From contig JAVJQK010000108.1 of NCBI GenBank assembly GCA_040218145.1, forward strand, positions 62,001-126,000: 64,000 nt of DNA, given 5' to 3'. Shown here piece by piece: positions 2,216 through 48,792 of this stretch. The notes under the pieces were generated by a model. The model was not told the origin of the DNA. It worked only from the letters and a program-made list of their open reading frames with translations, and made no database searches. Position 1 is the stretch's first letter. Every line of letters begins with the position of its first letter. Source of the DNA: Sandaracinaceae bacterium. Lineage in GTDB: Bacteria > Myxococcota_A > Polyangia > Polyangiales > Sandaracinaceae. A program made the position numbers and the translations under genes.

Positions 2216-3181
2216 ATGGAGAAGCTCCTCGAGGTATCCGATTTACCCGGGCCGGTCGCTTGGCTGGATGTCCGGGAGGGCGTGGTGCTATCGGTCCTTC
2301 AGGCCGAGCGCGACTACTCTCGGTTGGATGGCCGCTGGGCGTGGCGAACGAGCCCTGGAGTCGCCGGCCTTCACGTCGGCCCGGAGCTCAGCTTCAACGC
2401 GTTGGCGCGGCCGGGATGCGCAATCCGTCGCGCGCGCCTCAACACCGGAGCGTCGCGCGTCGTCGCGGTCCTGGGACCGACCGAATCCGAGCACCCGCTC
2501 GCCGCCATCGTGGTGTGGGATCTCGCCGGAAGAGAGGTCGCCCGACGGGAGTTCGACCGCACCCATGGATGGGACGCCGCGTGGTTTGGCGACCAGCTCG
2601 TCCTCGGGGTTCATGACGGCGCGTGGACCGAGGCGCACGGCGCAAAGGTGGAGATCTGGAACGCCGACCTCGACCGACCTGTCGACCGACTCTTGGTCAA
2701 CGACGCGGGCTTCGACGTAGTAGTCGAGGGAAGCGTCGTCGCGGCGTGTGGGAACGACCTGCATCTGTGGTGGCCCGGCACCGAACGAGCGCCGTTCTCC
2801 CTCCACGAGTCCTCGGCGGCGCCACCCGGTGAGATGGGAAACGGCGTACTCTCCCCCGACGGGAAGCTGGCGGCGGTCGTTCACGACCTCTGGCGCCCCG
2901 GTGAGCCACAGGCGCTCATCATTCGGGTCGACGAGCCGGGCGCGGAGCCGGTGACCATCTCGGATGGGACGGCGCACCAGGTCGCGAATCTCGCGTTCAA
3001 CTCCGACGGATCGCTGATCGCGGCCAGCCTCACCGAGCGTCCCGACGTGCGCGTCTACAGCGCGCGTGACGGCTCGGTCGTTGGTGAGACTCAGATGCCG
3101 AAGCACGGCGCGCTGGCGTGGCTCGACACCGAGACGCTCCTGGTCGGCGGCCCAACGCTGACGGCGTGGCGCGTCCGTTGA
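2216..3181 (+). CDS. Beta-propeller (WD40-like) hypothetical protein
   Basis: 321 aa from the ATG; a GTG directly before it is the alternative start. There is no signal peptide or membrane segment, so it is probably cytoplasmic. The chain consists of repeated short strands with patterns such as VWDLAGREV, LSPDGKLAAVVHD, FNSDGSLIAASL and RVYSARDGSVV. These are typical of WD40/PQQ-like propeller blades, which mostly mediate protein-protein contacts. No catalytic motif is visible. It stands alone downstream of tRNA-Asp and converges on the AbiE-type operon. Function unknown; it may be cargo of the accessory patch. Confidence 0.7.
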   Translation: MEKLLEVSDLPGPVAWLDVREGVVLSVLQAERDYSRLDGRWAWRTSPGVAGLHVGPELSFNALARPGCAIRRARLNTGASRVVAVLGPTESEHPLAAIVVWDLAGREVARREFDRTHGWDAAWFGDQLVLGVHDGAWTEAHGAKVEIWNADLDRPVDRLLVNDAGFDVVVEGSVVAACGNDLHLWWPGTERAPFSLHESSAAPPGEMGNGVLSPDGKLAAVVHDLWRPGEPQALIIRVDEPGAEPVTISDGTAHQVANLAFNSDGSLIAASLTERPDVRVYSARDGSVVGETQMPKHGALAWLDTETLLVGGPTLTAWRVR

Positions 3182-3224
3182 TACAGAGGGCGCGCCCAAG
3201 CTCGAATCCGAAGCACTTCCGTGC

Positions 3225-4007
3225 TCACACAGGTCCCCGAAACTCGAGCCCCGCGTAGAAGGCGCGCACCAACCCTTCGCCGGCGTTGGGGAACGGGGCC
3301 TGGCGATCCAGCTCGCCGCGCACGATGGGACTGTCCATGAACACCTCGACCAGGCGACGGTAGGCGGGCGAGAGAAACGAGTGCATGTCCGCCCCCAGGG
3401 CGCACGCGCCCTTGAGATCTTCGTCGTATACCGTCGACTGCGGGGGATCCCAGCGTCGTTCGTCGTCCTCGCCGAGGTAGCGGAGCATCACTCGACCCAC
3501 GTCTGCGGCGTCCTTCTCGCGGATGGTCGGTTTGTCCACGTACGCGATCATCTTCAGGAGCATCAGCACGGGCAGCGGTGGCGTCGGCGCGGTGGTCATC
3601 CGAGACTCGTCGCCCTCGCAGATGACCGCGACGTCCTCTGCCTTCGCGAGCGCCACGTCGAGCCCTCGAAGGTCGATGACCAGGCCCCTCGCGAGCTGCA
3701 CCTCGGAGGTCGCGCCGGGGTTGGCTCCGGCGGGCACGACATCCGCGCTCAGCCCGAGTTGATAGTGCCTCCAGCGATGTGGCTGTCGACGCACGTCTTC
3801 CCACCCCGCGGGGCGCAGGGCCTCACGGAGGGACGAGAGCTCCTCCGGCTCGACCGCGACCGCGAGGTCGACGTCGTCGGATCGACGCGGCGGAGCGTGT
3901 CCGCGGATGGCGAGCGCGGTCGCGCCGATGACCACGAAGCTCGTGCGCGGCCAGGACTCGCGCATGAAAGCGATCGTGTCGAAGTTCTTCTGCGCGAGGA
4001 CGATCAC
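3225..4007 (-). CDS. AbiEii-like nucleotidyltransferase toxin (type IV TA)
   Basis: 260 aa. The N-terminal half has the polymerase-beta-fold nucleotidyltransferase signature GATALAIRGH, followed by SDDVDLAV, where the acidic pair would bind metal. A motif near residue 160 (DKPTIREKDAADVGRVM) is typical of the AbiEii/AbiGii family. Family members are bacteriostatic toxins that transfer nucleotides and serve in phage abortive infection. The gene overlaps the upstream antitoxin-like gene by 4 bp (ATGA), the usual AbiEi-AbiEii order and coupling. The target is not predictable from sequence. It could instead be a non-toxic housekeeping nucleotidyltransferase, but the partner gene and operator argue against that. 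Confidence 0.82.
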   Translation of the reverse strand: MIVLAQKNFDTIAFMRESWPRTSFVVIGATALAIRGHAPPRRSDDVDLAVAVEPEELSSLREALRPAGWEDVRRQPHRWRHYQLGLSADVVPAGANPGATSEVQLARGLVIDLRGLDVALAKAEDVAVICEGDESRMTTAPTPPLPVLMLLKMIAYVDKPTIREKDAADVGRVMLRYLGEDDERRWDPPQSTVYDEDLKGACALGADMHSFLSPAYRRLVEVFMDSPIVRGELDRQAPFPNAGEGLVRAFYAGLEFRGPV

Positions 4008-13763: not shown

Positions 13764-15514
<1,751 letters not shown>

Positions 15515-15562
15515 CCTTCGCCCGCGAGCCCGCGCGCGCGCCGGCTCCCTTGATTCTGTTAT

Positions 15563-15590
15563 TTGTGCATGAGCACGTTATTTATGTAAT
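15563..15590 (+). promoter_or_regulatory. Candidate promoter of the Cys-rich lipoprotein gene
   Basis: The only A/T-rich island between the divergent kinase and lipoprotein genes. TTGTGC, a 16-bp spacer and TGTAAT (5/6 to TATAAT) fit sigma70. A small palindrome GTGC-ATGA-GCAC lies in the spacer and could be an operator. The start codon is 77 bp downstream. Confidence 0.4.
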
Positions 15591-15666
15591 TCGCTCTCCG
15601 CTTCACGTAGGTTGGGGACGGCGGCCATCCAGCAACGGGGGCGTCGCCGGATGGAGGGAGCTGCGG

Positions 15667-18600
15667 ATGAGAAGTGTGGGATGGTGTAGGAGATTGGCGC
15701 TCTGTGGGGCGCTCGCGCTCGTGGCGGCCACGGGCTGTGACGGGGGCGAAGTGAGCCCGCCAGACGCGTCGGGGACGGACGGAAGCGTGGACTCGGGCGC
15801 GGCGTGCGACGGCTGCCTGATCGGCGGGGCCTGCATCCCCGCCGGGACGGCCGACCCGTCCAACCCGTGCATGGTCTGCGACCCGGAGGCCTCGGCGACC
15901 GAGCTGAGCCCCGACGACGGGGCGAGCTGTGACGACGGACTGAGCTGCACCGAGCGCGACACGTGCTCCGCCGGCGCCTGCAGCGGTGAGACCATCGCCT
16001 GCGACGACGGCATCTCCTGCAACGGGGCCGAGATGTGCAGCGAGGACGCGGGCGGCTGCGAGCCCGGCGCGTCGGCGTGCGGCGCGGGGGAGCTGTGCGA
16101 CGCGGCCACCGACGCCTGCGTGGTCGGCTGCACGGGGGGCTGCACCATCGACGGCACCTGCTACGGGGCTGGCCAGGCCAACCCGCTCGAGCCCTGTCTC
16201 GTCTGCGATCCGAGCGCGTCCGCCACCGACTGGAGCTCCAACGAGGGCGCGACATGCGAGGACGGCGAGTTCTGCACCACCGGGGACGTGTGCGCCGCGG
16301 GCGTGTGCGTCGGAGGCGCCGCGCGAGACTGCGATGACGGCGTCGCGTGCGACGGAGCGGAGACCTGCGACGAGCTCGCCGACGTCTGTCAGCCGGGCGC
16401 GTCCACCTGCGCGAGCGACGAGATCTGCGACGTCGCGTCCGACACCTGCGTCACGTCGTGCACCGGCTGTGTGATCGGGGGCACGTGCTTCGGGGCCGGC
16501 CAGCGCAACCCGGCCAATCAGTGCGAGGTCTGTGACCCCGCCGCGTCGGCCGCGGGCTGGTCCAGCAATGACGGCGCGAGCTGCGACGACGGCCTGTTCT
16601 GCACCGACGGCGACGTCTGCGCCGGCACCACCTGCGGTGGCGCGGCCCGCGTGTGCTCGGACGGCATCTCCTGCAACGGCGCCGAGACGTGTGACGAGGT
16701 GACGGACGCCTGCACCGCGGGCGCCGCCACCTGCGGCGGGGGGACGCTCTGCGATCCCGCCACCGACGCGTGCGTGACGACCTGCAGCGGCTGCGTCATC
16801 GACGGCTCTTGCTACGGCGCCGGCCAGGCGAACCCGCTCAACGCGTGCGAGGTCTGCGACGTCGGTCGCTCCACCTCGTCCTGGAGCGCCAACGACGGCG
16901 CGCGCTGCGACGACGGGCTCTTCTGCACGGACGGCGACGTGTGCGCCGCCGGCGTGTGCGGCGGCGCGGCCCGCAGCTGCTCCGACGGGGTCGCCTGCAA
17001 CGGGACCGAGACCTGCGACGAGGCGGCCGGCGCGTGCGCCGCGGGCGCGACGACGTGCGCCGCGACGGAGCTCTGCGACACGGCGGCCGACGCTTGTGTC
17101 ACCACCTGCGCCGGCTGCGTGGTCGGCGGCGTCTGCTACGCCCAGGACACGCGAAACCCCGCCAACGCCTGCGAGATCTGCGACACGGCGCGCTCCCGGA
17201 CGGCGTTCAGCGCGAACGACGGCGCGAGCTGCGACGACGGCTTCTTCTGCACGACCGGGGACACCTGCTCGGGCGGGATGTGCGCCGGCAGCGCGGCGAG
17301 CTTCTGCGACGACGGCCTGAGCTGCAACGGGGCCGAGACCTGCAACGAGTCGACCGACCGGTGCGTCGCCGGCGCCACCACGTGTGGGGCGGGGCAGGTC
17401 TGTGACCCGGGCACCGACGCGTGCGTCACGGCGTGCACCGGGTGCGTCATCGGCGGGGTCTGCCACGCCGCCGGCGCGCGGAACCCGGCCAACGAGTGCC
17501 AGGTCTGCGACACCGCCAGCTCCGCGACGGACTGGACGGCGAACACCGGCGCGCGCTGCGACGACGGGCTCTACTGCACCGTCGCCGACGTGTGCTCCGC
17601 CTCGGCGGTGTGCGGCGGCGCGGCGCGCGGCTGCGGCGACGGCGTGACCTGCAACGGGGCCGAGACCTGCAACGAGAGCGCGGACCGCTGTGACGCGGGC
17701 GCGAGCACGTGTGGCGCGGGGCAGGTCTGCGACACCGCGGCCGACGTCTGCGTCACGACCTGCAGCGGCTGCGTGATCGGCGGCGTCTGCTACGCGCCGA
17801 GCACCACCAACCCGGCGAACGGATGCCAGGTCTGTGACCCGAGCGCGTCCACCTCGGCGTGGTCGGCCAACACGGGCGCGTCGTGCGACGACGGGCTCTT
17901 CTGCACGGTCGGCGAGGCCTGCTCGGCGGCCGCGGTCTGCGCCGGGGGGACCGCCCGCAGCTGCGACGACGGCGTGTCCTGCAACGGGAGCGAGTCCTGC
18001 AACGAGTCGACCGATCGCTGCGACGCGGGCACGAGCACGTGCGGCGCGGGGCAGGTCTGCGACGCGGCGGCGGACAGCTGCGTGCTGAGCTGCGGCGGAG
18101 GCACGAGCCTCTGCGGCGGCTCGTGCGTCAACACCTCCTACGACCCGGGGAACTGCGGCAGCTGCGGCAACGTCTGCCCCGATGTCGCCAACAGCGAGCC
18201 GGTCTGCGTGTCCGGGAGCTGCAGCGCGGTCTGCGACTCCGGCTTCGGGGACTGTGACCTCGACCCCACGAACGGCTGCCAGGACCTCCAGTCCGACAAC
18301 GCCAACTGCGGCGCGTGCGGCAACGTCTGCGCGGGCGGCGAGACGTGCATGGCCGGGGTCTGCCAGGCCTTCACGCCGGTCCCGAACGAGATCCTCTACA
18401 ACGGCTACTACTACGCGACGCTCGACGGAGCGCCTCCCGGGGCCGACTACGGCACCTGGACCAACACCTGTCAGACCAACCCCATCGCGCTCCCGACGGG
18501 CTGGGCGCTGGTCCCCGAGGACGCGGGCGTGGTCGCCAACGTGATCCGTCCGAACGTGTACGGGACGCACTGCATCCTGTTCTCGAACGGCGTGTCGTAC

Positions 18601-18732
18601 GGCGTCCGGACCTACAACAACGGCAACCCGTGCGGCTGCAGCGGCTCGGTGTGCATGAGCGAGTCCCCGGCGGGGACGTGGCGCGTCACGAGCTGCTCGC
18701 GGCGGATCCTGATCCGGCGCCCGGCTCCCTGA
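15667..18732 (+). CDS. Cysteine-rich repeat lipoprotein (7 tandem ~109-aa repeats)
   Basis: 1021 aa. The signal peptide ends at the lipobox ATGC, then an Asp/Gly linker. Seven tandem repeats of ~108-109 residues begin with C-x-G-C-x-I-x-G at about 15804, 16132, 16459, 16783, 17107, 17434 and 17761. Each carries about 14 Cys and blocks such as CDDGLFCT, CNGAETC, CGAGQVCD and the spacer NPANxCxVCD. Two shorter CGxCGNVC modules follow, then a ~110-aa C-terminal domain with six Cys (TWTNTCQTNPIALPTGW, CGCSGSVC). It should be a disulfide-rich rod on the cell surface; adhesion, spore/outer coat or prey contact are possible roles. An upstream in-frame extension lacks signal-peptide character, and GGGAG precedes the chosen ATG. 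Confidence 0.85.
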   Translation: MRSVGWCRRLALCGALALVAATGCDGGEVSPPDASGTDGSVDSGAACDGCLIGGACIPAGTADPSNPCMVCDPEASATELSPDDGASCDDGLSCTERDTCSAGACSGETIACDDGISCNGAEMCSEDAGGCEPGASACGAGELCDAATDACVVGCTGGCTIDGTCYGAGQANPLEPCLVCDPSASATDWSSNEGATCEDGEFCTTGDVCAAGVCVGGAARDCDDGVACDGAETCDELADVCQPGASTCASDEICDVASDTCVTSCTGCVIGGTCFGAGQRNPANQCEVCDPAASAAGWSSNDGASCDDGLFCTDGDVCAGTTCGGAARVCSDGISCNGAETCDEVTDACTAGAATCGGGTLCDPATDACVTTCSGCVIDGSCYGAGQANPLNACEVCDVGRSTSSWSANDGARCDDGLFCTDGDVCAAGVCGGAARSCSDGVACNGTETCDEAAGACAAGATTCAATELCDTAADACVTTCAGCVVGGVCYAQDTRNPANACEICDTARSRTAFSANDGASCDDGFFCTTGDTCSGGMCAGSAASFCDDGLSCNGAETCNESTDRCVAGATTCGAGQVCDPGTDACVTACTGCVIGGVCHAAGARNPANECQVCDTASSATDWTANTGARCDDGLYCTVADVCSASAVCGGAARGCGDGVTCNGAETCNESADRCDAGASTCGAGQVCDTAADVCVTTCSGCVIGGVCYAPSTTNPANGCQVCDPSASTSAWSANTGASCDDGLFCTVGEACSAAAVCAGGTARSCDDGVSCNGSESCNESTDRCDAGTSTCGAGQVCDAAADSCVLSCGGGTSLCGGSCVNTSYDPGNCGSCGNVCPDVANSEPVCVSGSCSAVCDSGFGDCDLDPTNGCQDLQSDNANCGACGNVCAGGETCMAGVCQAFTPVPNEILYNGYYYATLDGAPPGADYGTWTNTCQTNPIALPTGWALVPEDAGVVANVIRPNVYGTHCILFSNGVSYGVRTYNNGNPCGCSGSVCMSESPAGTWRVTSCSRRILIRRPAP

Positions 18733-44125: not shown

Positions 44126-46285
44126 ATGATGAGACGTTTCGTACCCTCGTGGCTCGCGCTGGCCCTGCTCTCCCTCGGAGCCGCGCTCGTGGTCGGCCTC
44201 GCGCCGTCCTGGGCGCTCGCCCAGCCTCCTGCCGACGACGAAGAAGAGGTCGACGCGGAAGAGGGCGAAGGCGATCCCGACGCGGAGGAGGATCCGTACG
44301 CCGACGAGGACGACTGGGACGACGAGGAGGAGGAGCCCGGCCTCCGCCCGCCCGTGGTCGAAGACCTCGAGCCCGACGAAGAGGACTACGAGGACGAGGA
44401 AGAGGACGAAGAGGACGACGTCGAGGACGAAGACGACGACGAGCTCCCGTCCCCCGCCGAGGCGCAGCAGCGGCTCGAGGAGGGCCCGGCCGGCGACAGC
44501 GACCCGACGCTCGCGCGCTGGACCACGCCCCAGACGGTCTTCGACCTGCACGGCTACATCCGCTTCCGCGGCGAGTTCCAGGACAACTTCTTCCTGGACC
44601 GCGTGCTCGGTGAGTCGATGAACATGAACGTGCTCGACTCGACCGGCGGCTACGTGCGTGGAAACGCGCCGCTGCCCTTCGGGCTCTTCCGCCCGGCCGA
44701 GGACGGCGTGATCCCGGCTGGCGGTGGCTGCGGCTTCGACTCCGACGGCCGGGCGCTGCCCTGCGCGCAGCACGCGAACGCGTACGCGAACATGCGGCTC
44801 CGGATCGAGCCGACGATCCACCTCTCGGACGACGTGCGCATCCGCATGCAGTTCGACGTGCTCGACAACCTCGTGCTCGGCTCCACGCCGAACGCGCTCG
44901 CGGTGGGGCCGCGAGTGGGGGCCGGCGGCATCATCGACCCGTTCTACCGTTACGAGCGCACCACGTTCGCGCCGATCGACACGCTGTCGACCACGATGAC
45001 CTCGCCCACCTACGGGCTGAACTCGGTCCAGGACGCGATCCAGGTGCGGCGCGCCTGGGGTGAGGTCCGCAACCGCGGGCTCGGCGAGCTGCGCTTCGGC
45101 CGCATGGGCGATCACTGGGGTCTCGGCCTCGTCGCCAACGGCGGCAGCGGCATCGACTCGGACTACCAGACCGACGTCGACCGGATCATGATCATCACCC
45201 GGCTCGCGGGGATCTACCTCTTCGGCGCCTGGGACTTCGCGTCCGAGGGCCTGCTCTACAACGAGGTCGCGGACGTCGGCGGGATCCCCTTCGACCGGAG
45301 CCGCATCGACGACACCGATCAGTTCGTGCTCGGCGCCGCCTACCGCGCCACGGACGAGGAGCGCGAGGCGGCCCTGCAGCGAGGCGACGCGGTCTTCAAC
45401 ATCGGCGCGCGCTTCCAGTACCGAAGCCAGAACCTGAGCTCCTACGGCACGACGAACCCGTTCGGCCTGTGCACGATCTGCGGTGACGCCGACAGCACTC
45501 TGCCGAGCGACGAGCGTCGCTTCGCCGAACCGGTCTTCGTGCGCCGCGGCGCCGACATCTACACGCCCGACCTCTGGATCCAGTTCCTCTACGAGAACCT
45601 CCGGCTCGAGCTCGAGGCGGTCATGACCTTCGGGCAGATCGAGAACCTCGGCGTCGCCGCCTACACGACGCCCGAGGAGGGCAACCAGGCGGAGCTGCTC
45701 CAGTTCGGCATCGCGTTCGAGGGCGAGTACCACCTCCTGAACGACCAGCTCGGCATCTACTTCAACGCGGGCTACGCGTCGGGCGACGCGGACCAGGAGG
45801 GCCTCAGCCTCATCAACGGGCTGCCGGCGCAGAACGCGGCGGGCGAGGGCGACGGGCGGGTCGACCGCACCTACAGCACCTTCTACTTCCACCCGAACTA
45901 CCGGGTCGACCTCATCTTCTGGCGCAACATCATGCGTCAGGTGGGCGGCGCGTATTACTTCCGCCCCGGCCTCAGCTACGACTTCATCAAGAACAGCTTC
46001 GGCCAGCTCCTCGGCGCCCGCGCCGACGTGATCTGGAGCCGCGCCGCGGAGCCCATCCAGAGCTGGGGCAACGCCGACGACCTCGGCGTGGAGATCGACG
46101 TCTCGGCGTACTACCGCAGCGAAGACGGCCCCGACCTCCTCGACGGCTTCTACGCGCAGGCGCAGTGGGGCATCTTCTTCCCCCTCGACGGCCTCGGCTT
46201 CGGCCCGGGCAGCCCCTCGGGCACCCAGCCCGCCGCGCTCGGCCCGGCGATGACGTTCCGCCTGCTGCTCGGCATCCAGTACTGA
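44126..46285 (+). CDS. TIGR04551-like outer-membrane beta-barrel protein
   Basis: 719 aa. A cleavable signal peptide (MMRRFVPSW, then hydrophobic, cut near SWALAQ). Residues ~35-125 are extremely acidic (runs such as EEDYEDEEEDEEDD), probably disordered and periplasmic. From ~145 on, alternating amphipathic strands run to the C-terminal aromatic residue in LLLGIQY, as in outer-membrane barrels. FDLHGYIRFRGEFQDNFFL and LRFGRMGDHWGLG are phosphoporin-like strands. It resembles a family known almost only from myxobacteria. The start is the first of two ATGs; function unknown, possibly a porin or carbohydrate channel. Confidence 0.82.
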   Translation: MMRRFVPSWLALALLSLGAALVVGLAPSWALAQPPADDEEEVDAEEGEGDPDAEEDPYADEDDWDDEEEEPGLRPPVVEDLEPDEEDYEDEEEDEEDDVEDEDDDELPSPAEAQQRLEEGPAGDSDPTLARWTTPQTVFDLHGYIRFRGEFQDNFFLDRVLGESMNMNVLDSTGGYVRGNAPLPFGLFRPAEDGVIPAGGGCGFDSDGRALPCAQHANAYANMRLRIEPTIHLSDDVRIRMQFDVLDNLVLGSTPNALAVGPRVGAGGIIDPFYRYERTTFAPIDTLSTTMTSPTYGLNSVQDAIQVRRAWGEVRNRGLGELRFGRMGDHWGLGLVANGGSGIDSDYQTDVDRIMIITRLAGIYLFGAWDFASEGLLYNEVADVGGIPFDRSRIDDTDQFVLGAAYRATDEEREAALQRGDAVFNIGARFQYRSQNLSSYGTTNPFGLCTICGDADSTLPSDERRFAEPVFVRRGADIYTPDLWIQFLYENLRLELEAVMTFGQIENLGVAAYTTPEEGNQAELLQFGIAFEGEYHLLNDQLGIYFNAGYASGDADQEGLSLINGLPAQNAAGEGDGRVDRTYSTFYFHPNYRVDLIFWRNIMRQVGGAYYFRPGLSYDFIKNSFGQLLGARADVIWSRAAEPIQSWGNADDLGVEIDVSAYYRSEDGPDLLDGFYAQAQWGIFFPLDGLGFGPGSPSGTQPAALGPAMTFRLLLGIQY

Positions 46286-46390
46286 GACGCGCGAGAGCCC
46301 TGGCCGGGTAGGCTGAGCGCGGGCGTCGAGTCGATGAAACGACTCCGCGCCCGCTTCCTCTTCGGCGCCTCCTCGTCCGAGCCCAGCTCC

Positions 46391-46550
46391 GCCTCGCCCG
46401 CCTCCGCTTCCGCGCCCGCCTCCGCTTCGGCGCCTGCATCCGCTTCCGCGCCTGCATCCGCTTCCGCATCCGCTTCCGCATCCGCTGCCGCATCCGCTGC
46501 CGCTGCCGCATCCGCCGCCGCATCCGCTGCCGCATCCGCATCCGCGCCCG
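46391..46550. repeat. Hexanucleotide repeat tract 1
   Basis: Imperfect 6-bp repeats of (C/G)CNTCC and GC(A/T)TCC type, e.g. GCATCCGCTTCC and GCATCCGCTGCC, over about 160 bp. All frames are open because the period is a multiple of three. It lies between an outer-membrane gene and the four-helix-bundle gene, on the 3' side of the latter. Confidence 0.75.
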
Positions 46551-46683
46551 GCCGCGCGCCCGGTGCCGCTGCCGCGACCCGGACCCCGATCCCGACCGAT
46601 GACCAGGCACGCTCTCCGTGGCGCGAGGCCGCAAGACGTCGGGAGAAGAAGCGGGAGAAGGCCGCAGCCCTCTCCCGAGCTGC

Positions 46684-47028
46684 TCATCTCGCCCGATAGA
46701 GCCTCCGATGCGTCATCTGGGCGACCCGCGTCAGCCCGGCGATGATGAAGTCGGCCTTCTGGACGTCGCAGAACTCGAAGGCGCGCGCCATTCGCACCGC
46801 GGTGATCGCCTCGGCGCATGAGCCGGCGGCGGTGCCGATCCTCTCCTTCCGGTGTCCCTTCCGGACTCCGTCCGCCTCCGAGTGATTGAGCGCGACCGAC
46901 TTGGCGGCGCGAAACAGCTCGTCGGCGAGGTTCTTGTCGTGCACCCGGACCTCGACCACCACCGCGTAGAGGTGCGGGAGGAGGTTCATCATGAGGTCGA
47001 GTGCGGTGCTTGCGTAGGGGATGGTCAT
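46684..47028 (-). CDS. Four-helix-bundle protein (S23/IVP-like)
   Basis: 114 aa. The sequence from residue ~10 reads as four amphipathic helices: [61 protein letters not shown] and [20 protein letters not shown]. It matches the S23/four-helix-bundle family often encoded inside 23S rRNA intervening sequences. Members form pentamers; the Avd subunit of diversity-generating retroelements is a relative, but no reverse transcriptase is present here. A GGAGGGGGTG site precedes the ATG. The gene is isolated between repeat tracts and has an 11-bp palindrome just upstream. Confidence 0.82.
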
Positions 47029-47055
47029 GTCACCCCCTCCCCGGCGCCTCCGTGT

Positions 47056-47086
47056 GTGATGCAAACCGTAGTTCCGTTTGCATCAC
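47056..47086 (-). promoter_or_regulatory. 11-bp inverted repeat upstream of the four-helix-bundle gene
   Basis: GTGATGCAAAC and GTTTGCATCAC are perfect complements around a 9-nt loop (CGTAGTTCC), 28 bp before the start codon. It can be an operator for a dimeric regulator or, at RNA level, a leader hairpin. Confidence 0.55.
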
Positions 47087-47312
47087 GCGCGGAGGTGCCA
47101 TTGTGGGGGGGTGGCGGGGCCATCCCCGGAGCAAGCACCGCGCGCGACCGAGCGACCTCGGGACCCGTGTGCGATTTCCATCCCGTGCACTCACAGGCGG
47201 GCGCGCGCCGCATTCGGGACGCCCGCTCTCTCGGTTCGAGACAACGAAAGGAGCGGGACCCAGAGGGGAAGGCGTTCGGCGCGTCCGTGTCTGTTACCGC
47301 TTCCGAGACCCC

Positions 47313-47449
47313 GCCCGCCTCCGCCTGCGCGCCCGCCTCCGCTCCCGCCTCCGCTCCCGCCTCCGCGACCGCCTCTGCGACCGCGCCCGCCTCCACGCCC
47401 GCCTCCACGCCCGCCTCCGTCTCCGCCTCCGCGACCGCGTCCGCCTCGC
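47313..47449. repeat. Hexanucleotide repeat tract 2
   Basis: GCCTCC, GCTCCC, GCGACC and GCCCGC units in near-perfect 6-bp phase over about 135 bp. It is upstream of the four-helix-bundle gene and has no credible coding role: all reading frames give two- or three-residue repeats. Confidence 0.7.
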
Positions 47450-47517
47450 GAAACGCCAGCCACGGCCTCGTAAGTCCGACGCTCGTTCGGCGTGACAAGC
47501 GCCGCGCGAGGATGCGT

Positions 47518-47880
47518 CCCGCTCCCGACCCAGCTGCCGCTGCCGCTGGGCGGCTCCCGCTCCCGATCCCGATCCCGACCCCGCTCCCGATCCGGCTCCC
47601 GATCCCGATCCCGACCCCGATCCCGACCCCGCTCCCGATCCCGATCGCGACCCCGATCCCGACCCCGACCCCGATCCCGCTCCCGATCCCGCTCCCGATC
47701 CCGATCCCGATCCCGCTCCCGCTCCCGCTCCCGCTCCCGCTCCCGACCCCGACCCCGACCCCGCTGCCGCTGCGGTTCCCGATCCCGACCCCCGCGGCCG
47801 CTGCCGCTCCCGACCCCGCTGCCGCTCCCGCTCCCGACCCCCCGGCCGCTGCCGGCGCCGCTCCCGCTCCCGCAGCTGCC
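47518..47880. repeat. Hexanucleotide repeat tract 3 (CCCGAT/CCCGCT/CCCGAC)
   Basis: About 360 bp of CCCGNY units with runs of identical CCCGAT or CCCGCT, ending in GCTGCC-type units. The strands are strongly biased: almost all C/T/G on plus. The six translations are two-residue alternations such as S-R, P-I or R-D, which shows they are artefacts of the period. It is the longest of three related tracts in the surrounding 1.6 kb. Confidence 0.8.
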
Positions 47881-48015
47881 GCAGAGACTCCCCGCCCCAG
47901 GCAAGACGACGTCCCCTCTCATGTCACCGAGACATGCCGGCGAACCGACTACGTCGAGACGCCGCGCGGCTTCGACGCATGACGTCCATCCGCACGGCGT
48001 GATATCGATCTCGGC

Positions 48016-48792
48016 ATGAGGGGGACCACTCGTGCGCTCTCGGCCGCGGCGTTCGCGCTGGGGGCCTTGGTGATGGGGGGCTGCTCGCACACCTGGTACC
48101 AGTTCGAGGTCAGCCAGGTGGAGCGCAGCCACATCGACGCGACGAAGAACGCGCTGGCCGCGACGCAGGCGAACCCGAACGCGCTCGCGCAGGTGGTCGA
48201 CCTCGAGGGGCGGCGTGGCGCGGAGGCGCTGATCGCCGGGATGAGCGTGCAGTCCAACCAGGGGGACGCGCAGGTCGAGCGGCTCTCGCGGGTGCTCTAT
48301 CTCGCGATCATGGGCGACGCGGAGGATCCGCTCGCCGCGCTCGACCAGGACATGACGATGGCGGGCGCGCGGGTCGCGCAGCGGATCGCGCAGGGCGGGC
48401 TCAATCAGATGGGGCTCGGCGGGCTGGCCGCGATGGTCGGCGTGGTGGGCGACGACGATGGGCAGCGGCTGCGAGAGATGAGCGTGAGCCTGCAGCGAGG
48501 TCAGCCGCAGACCTGCGGGCCGTTCGACGTCATCGTGAGCTACGACGCGGGCATCCTCGGCCACATCCACACGTCCATCACCGACAACGACGCGACGTAC
48601 CAGGCCTGGAAGCAGCGGGTGCAGGCGGTGCACCTGGTCCGCTTCACGTGCGCGACCAACCACATGCTGGTGGTGATGACGCGCAATCGCGGTGAGGCGG
48701 GGCTGCGGGTGATCGGCTGGCACTTCGTGACGCAGGCGCAGTGGGAGTCGATGCGGCCCGGTCTCCGGCACGCGTTCGATCTCCCGCAGTGA
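48016..48792 (+). CDS. Lipoprotein, unknown function
   Basis: 258 aa. The signal peptide has lipobox MGGC at residues ~21-24. The mature part is helix-rich in its first half (VSQVERSHIDATKNALAATQANPNAL) and has a Gly/Met-rich stretch (GGLNQMGLGGLAAMVGVVGDDDG), possibly membrane-active. A C-terminal half follows with CGPFDVIVSYDAGILGHIHT and FTCATNHMLVVMTRN. Two Cys in the second half probably pair. No family recognised. It overlaps the next short gene by GTGA. Confidence 0.65.
   Translation: MRGTTRALSAAAFALGALVMGGCSHTWYQFEVSQVERSHIDATKNALAATQANPNALAQVVDLEGRRGAEALIAGMSVQSNQGDAQVERLSRVLYLAIMGDAEDPLAALDQDMTMAGARVAQRIAQGGLNQMGLGGLAAMVGVVGDDDGQRLREMSVSLQRGQPQTCGPFDVIVSYDAGILGHIHTSITDNDATYQAWKQRVQAVHLVRFTCATNHMLVVMTRNRGEAGLRVIGWHFVTQAQWESMRPGLRHAFDLPQ

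Follow-up and report, generated by a model that had tools for sequence, protein, structure and literature searches.

Intervening sequences (IVS) of 23S rRNA genes that carry an S23p gene, for example that of Coxiella burnetii, are described in the available part of one report (PMC4990558) as compact, patchily distributed elements of a few hundred base pairs with strong RNA stems. The same part of that report calls IVS selfish, regards their functionality and origin as unclear and places on record an old proposal that the S23 ORF served mobility. Dispersed heptanucleotide repeats are known, according to the available portions of two other reports, in Xanthomonas and Nostoc (PMC4692102) and in Beggiatoaceae (PMC4679880), where spread by a mobile element or by a repeat-binding protein was considered.

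The window analysed here, a stretch of 64,000 nucleotides, contains an S23-like gene flanked by hexanucleotide tracts. On balance, gene and tracts appear to form one copy of a small mobile, IVS-like element carrying or generating hexanucleotide arrays. The element belongs to soil bacteria of the myxobacterial group. As far as the cited part on IVS extends, the two share a compact layout with an S23-family ORF, a patchy distribution and RNA stems; however, IVS are located in 23S rRNA helices and are excised by RNase III, whereas the present elements are intergenic, reach up to 30 copies, bear hexanucleotide arrays and have empty sites. The window copy lies between protein genes and not in a 23S rRNA gene (Rfam gave no rRNA match at gathering score or at E<=5 over 46000-48300), and no locus read here falls within a recognised rRNA gene. 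The heptanucleotide repeats (PMC4692102, PMC4679880) are likewise many short, mostly intergenic tandem arrays; in the available portions of those reports they mostly comprise few units and have no tie to S23, whereas here hexamers are repeated in tens of units and are linked to S23 genes.

Avd (PDB 4dwl, 8ub7) is similar in fold to the model of the window protein (TM-score 0.76-0.79) and is also a small protein beside a structured RNA region. The Avd equivalog model NF033474 reached at best 17.1 bits, in one of the seven proteins scanned, against a cut-off of 80. The two systems differ in that a reverse transcriptase is apparently not a constant companion of the S23 elements: such a partner was considered and found unsupported, with no RVT_1 match in the S23-positive genomes G004, G010, G029 and G034 (several of them drafts) and one match in the window genome. 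Further comparison is offered by MITEs, which are non-autonomous and have terminal hairpins or palindromes, and by solo LTRs, which provide the scar model for lone arrays; the present element differs from these in its conserved protein gene and in borders formed by hexanucleotide arrays rather than by LTRs or short target duplications. S23 elements in rRNA and dispersed heptamer arrays are already known, and S23 elements with hexanucleotide arrays are apparently new, no description of such genes or elements having been found in the open-access literature (most subscription journals lay outside the search).

The element in the window and its copies

The three tracts are present much as the first-pass annotation had described them, their total length being 715 bp instead of about 650 bp (Table 1). 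Its statements on strand bias and open reading frames also hold: all three tracts are of the CCGNNN type, their + strand being 53-57% C and 22-26% G, stop codons occur in one of the 18 tract-frames, and spurious ORFs cross the tracts on both strands. The in-phase count of tract 3 (36/57) is lowered by phase shifts. The pattern (CCGNNN)9CCG is matched 18 times in the window, with no match on the opposite strand and none in reversed-sequence controls; genome-wide, 2940+2477 matches were obtained vs 80+23 for the backwards control. A tandem repeat of another kind (period 327, 6.8 copies) occupies 15854-18063 of the window, inside the long ORF 15484-18732.

Table 1. Features of the S23-like locus in the window
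Feature	Position	Strand	Basis or remark
Hexanucleotide tract 1 (CCGNNN on +; GCATCC/GCTTCC types)	46392-46589, 198 bp	+	3' side of S23-like gene; CCG in phase in 26/33 units
Family C element core, approximate (3' hairpin to conserved 5' GCACGGG)	46653-47188	-	conserved among copies, flanks not
3' hairpin of element, conserved in family C	46653-46676	-	family C alignment
S23-like four-helix-bundle gene, 114 aa, family C	46684-47028	-	TIGR02436 over cut-off; predicted fold; pN/pS
57-bp palindrome directly upstream of gene, conserved in family C	47043-47099		family C copies compared
Hexanucleotide tract 2 (CCGCCT types)	47285-47458, 174 bp	+	5' side of S23-like gene; CCG in phase in 21/29 units
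Hexanucleotide tract 3 (CCGATC/CCGCTC/CCGACC types)	47545-47887, 343 bp	+	best single phase 36/57 units

The S23-like gene is situated between tracts 1 and 2. Its product passes the NCBIfam model TIGR02436 'four helix bundle protein' (33.8 bits, cut-off 24), whose cut-off was exceeded by all seven proteins scanned, this one among them. It scores slightly under the Pfam PF05635 cut-off (29.9 vs 33.8 bits); the family A and B proteins introduced below score above it. The AlphaFold2 model, built from an alignment of 32 sequences, has four helices (pLDDT 94.4), and its best PDB matches are 2gsc and 2rld of the S23 family, followed by Avd. By family model and predicted fold, the protein is a member of the S23 / 23S rRNA IVP four-helix-bundle family.

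The gene had been called isolated, which is true within the window only: the genome, an 11.06-Mb draft, contains 31 PF05635 matches, the surroundings of all of which were retrieved. After omission of C105, a weak partial match without a tract, 30 copies remain, which fall into three families of near-identical members, A (4), B (20) and C (6, the window copy included). CCGNNN tracts adjoin every one of these 30 clear copies. For thirteen of the 31 matches a contig end is at most 500 bp away, against an expectation of about 0.4, so copies of the S23 element break the assembly. Within a family the core sequence is kept, and the flanking sequence, which continues into tracts, varies among copies; the insertion sites are mostly intergenic.

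The element core measures about 500-800 bp and comprises a structured leader or palindromes, the S23/Avd-fold gene and a 3' hairpin. In family B a conserved leader of about 230 nt, with a predicted long stem bearing hairpins, precedes the gene, which is followed by the 3' hairpin. The family A leader is about 80% identical to that of family B over 77 nt, and the protein is different. Evidence for pairing in the leader is modest, changes on both sides being seen in 6 of 67 pairs. Neither 46000-48300 of the window nor any of 11 loci gave an Rfam match at gathering score; sub-threshold Rfam microRNA matches fall on palindromes, including the one at 47043-47099. No transposase was recognised inside the element cores read, and a by-eye look for a hexamer template within the element, at L041 and L111 only, gave nothing convincing. 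At L027, near 2990-3500, about three copies of the family B 3' hairpin follow the gene in a tandem row.

As judged from substitution patterns, the S23 proteins of these elements are under purifying selection. The pN/pS ratio is 0.07 among 17 family B copies (truncated copies and C104 excluded), 0.25 among the six copies of family C and 0.04 among the four of family A, and it ranges from 0.02 to 0.25 between four orthologous pairs of the genomes G001 and G006. Proteins that change so little (0.02-0.25) imply that the product is expressed and needed.

Association of S23 genes with hexanucleotide arrays

The link between tracts and S23-like genes, put forward earlier as possible but unproved, is now strongly supported, since a period-6 tract occurs within 1 kb of 88 of 107 S23 genes. 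This sample, a lower bound on the S23 genes present, draws 31 rows, a fragment among them, from the window genome and the other 76 from 18 relatives. When only gene sides with 1 kb or more of flanking sequence are counted, 111 of 165 carry a period-6 tract; the control contained 4 tracts in 400 kb (20 stretches of G001, G006 and G011). No period between 3 and 12 is prominent other than 6 and its multiple 12. The 19 S23 genes without a tract include the most Pfam-typical ones.

The hexamer depends on the genus, being CCGNNN in the window genome, CAGYGN in G011 and its congeners, and GCGTCN, GTGAGC and others in G001/G006. Sometimes it also differs between loci, and the two tracts of one locus usually match. 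The association persists in genomes near 60% GC. As a general reading, the tracts as coding sequence were ruled out, because CAGTGA units include stops; as an exception, some arrays lie in frame within a gene. One of these (L071:3057-3674, about 200 codons) forms part of a membrane glycosyltransferase-like gene; the relative of this gene in G004 (62% identity over the query piece) shows a short loop in place of the array.

When sampling was widened across the phylum, the S23 alignment was matched by 89 of 284 genomes. Among the loci so listed, 25 were inspected, six of them duplicates of loci already counted, with a hexamer tract in 20 and a heptamer tract in one; at the latter (L200 of G142, 1205-1348) a heptanucleotide array (GGCAGTG) flanks the S23 locus instead of a hexanucleotide one. 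Each of 19 S23-free relatives has at most two CCGNNN tract starts, and six S23-positive genomes have 19 to 103; the remaining S23-positive genomes are also low in CCGNNN tracts because their hexamers differ. For CAGYGN, 566 matches in G011 compare with 3 in its S23-free congener G019.

Most copies of the element have arrays on either side, and the orientation of the arrays is fixed relative to the element. With respect to it, family B tracts are '+' at 15 of 15 upstream and 11 of 13 downstream positions, family C tracts are '-' at 4/4 upstream and 6/6 downstream, and the upstream tracts of family A are '-' in all four cases. In the G011 genus CAGYGN stands on the same strand at 17 of 17 element borders. 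Tracts within a locus are also more alike than tracts of different loci: in G001/G006, where 10 of 12 tract pairs are inverted, the mean similarity is 0.51 within vs 0.11 between loci; in the window genome (8 of 11 pairs direct) it is 0.35 vs 0.16; and in G011, where all five loci are direct (10 rows, each locus twice), it is 0.62 vs 0.30. Exceptions to this likeness are one L012 pair, L013, one L014 pair, L114 and L122.

Empty sites, length change and tracts without a gene

Near-identical copies of the element are found at unrelated sites, and orthologous empty sites exist in the G011 genus, another genus than that of the window, from which all clean empty sites come. The G011 element measures 800 bp and contains two convergent S23 genes between two large palindromes. 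Elements of this kind in four congeneric genomes align from tract to tract, their flanks being unshared except in L209/L226. At a CBS-domain/phosphorylase locus the interval is 1171 bp in G011 vs 28 bp in a close relative (L238), and at a lipoprotein/CinA locus it is 1159 bp vs 13 bp in G019. The relatives compared were 10 of the 16 close matches at the former locus (one of the 16 being G011 itself) and four at the latter. A long tract is absent at all 14 orthologous loci compared, ten of which aligned on both sides. Since these sites have neither the element nor a long array, the arrays either come together with the element or expand at its borders. The first-pass annotation had missed both this absence of arrays at element-free sites of a related genus and the nature of the S23 gene as a dispersed repeat.

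Single CAGYGN units or a few of them are found at some of the empty sites: four in L238, one in L229, two in L244 and one in L251. One to four units may have pre-existed there as a seed, and in L238 they are perhaps a scar; since four units stand at that empty site, a short array may come first. The four units of L238 adjoin a palindromic module. Modules of this kind (GGTGACTCGG...CCGAGTCACC type) abut one end of a CAGYGN array, with or without an element, and are seen in the G011 genus at L221, L222, L226, L238 and L322. No target-site duplication was seen in the empty-site comparison of this genus. As for the window locus itself, the downstream gene was matched in one of seven genomes (G002), with different neighbours and no tract.

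Variation of tract length, which had been suggested earlier, is seen between species: when orthologous S23 loci are compared in G001 and G006, the tract intervals deviate by tens to hundreds of base pairs. Orthology with a G006 locus is clear for four S23 loci of G001, the flanks being 81-96% identical; the loci of a fifth pair (L112/L127) are rearranged. The flank-to-core intervals of L111/L119 are 376 vs 401 bp and 405 vs 281 bp, and L118 lacks the upstream tract that L113 has.

The strict pattern marks 103 tract starts in the window genome, where tracts standing alone are more numerous than those with an element. Forty tract loci were chosen away from S23 matches, and 39 of them have no remnant of the element; L088, at a contig end, is the only one with a piece of the core. 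According to the earlier annotation, a link would be refuted if tracts of this sort were scattered in places that have no S23-like gene and if their length did not vary. The scattering is thus real (39 of 40 without remnant), and the invariance is not. The tracts without a gene are probably scars of lost elements; with a core remnant at 1 of 40 lone loci, such scars are assumed rather than seen.

Proposed mechanism and alternative explanations

By analogy with Avd, which works with template RNA in diversity-generating retroelements, an S23 oligomer could bind the leader RNA or DNA of the element, a step suggested by fold similarity to Avd only. The S23 complex would act in insertion at a site with one or a few hexamer units, and the target hexamer would be copied repeatedly on both sides, either during insertion or via later slippage. 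Recombination between directly repeated arrays could then delete the core and leave solo arrays, like the solo LTRs of LTR elements. A bolder version, which is offered tentatively and is doubtful, is that of a new class of mobile element without its own transposase or reverse transcriptase. In it an Avd-fold protein and a structured leader RNA would direct insertion, the same reaction would extend hexanucleotide arrays away from the two ends, with the target hexamer as seed and in direct or inverted order depending on the lineage, every site would thereby obtain a repeat of its own, the solo arrays would be fossils, and the intervening sequences of 23S rRNA would be relatives trapped in rRNA.

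The arrays could instead have come first, as hexanucleotide satellites spread by slippage or ectopic recombination, with the S23 element as a targeted guest using them as safe sites. The many tracts without an element and the four repeat units at the empty site L238 would suit this order of events, and the fixed orientation is compatible with a directional target. It is nevertheless an unlikely explanation: ten orthologous sites aligned on both sides are without a tract, genomes free of S23 have no such tracts, and the inverted tracts at 10 of 12 pairs in G001/G006 cannot arise by splitting of one tract. Somewhat more plausible, though still less likely than not, is a MITE-like passenger, on whose terminal hairpins or palindromes an unrelated transposase acts in trans, S23 being cargo and the arrays a by-product. 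This differs from the favoured small mobile S23 element in the role of S23 alone. Terminal hairpins and palindromes are indeed present, and the cores read contain no recognised transposase; nor did the loci read show an autonomous transposon with the same ends. Yet strong purifying selection among dispersed copies suits a protein needed by its own element, and leader and S23 stay paired across genera.

Hardly any credence can be given to two further explanations. Lone CCGNNN tracts do occur in GC-rich genomes, where plain microsatellites might lie incidentally near S23 genes, but such chance proximity is ruled out by the control density (4 tracts per 400 kb vs 111 of 165 gene sides), and the hexamer changes by genus while the association stays, also near 60% GC. 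Collapse or misjoining of repeats around S23 genes during assembly could be suspected because 13 of the 31 matches in the window genome are no more than 500 bp away from a contig end; however, G001 (one contig) and G006 (two contigs) show this layout too, and clean orthologous junctions exist.

S23 elements that come and go, with up to 30 copies per genome and clean empty sites, make mobility testable, and through them the role of S23 proteins and the spread of rRNA intervening sequences can be addressed. The small mobile element favoured above would account for hexanucleotide tracts of bacterial genomes that otherwise have no explanation and would be a bacterial case of a mobile element carrying or making microsatellite arrays.

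Near some tracts of the window genome, with or without S23, a module of about 170 nt is found, which consists of a chain of strong hairpins and is often in tandem (L063:5240-5760, L072:2640-2920, L076:1250-1420, L093, L094, L010 and L017). It could be another palindromic element sharing these sites.
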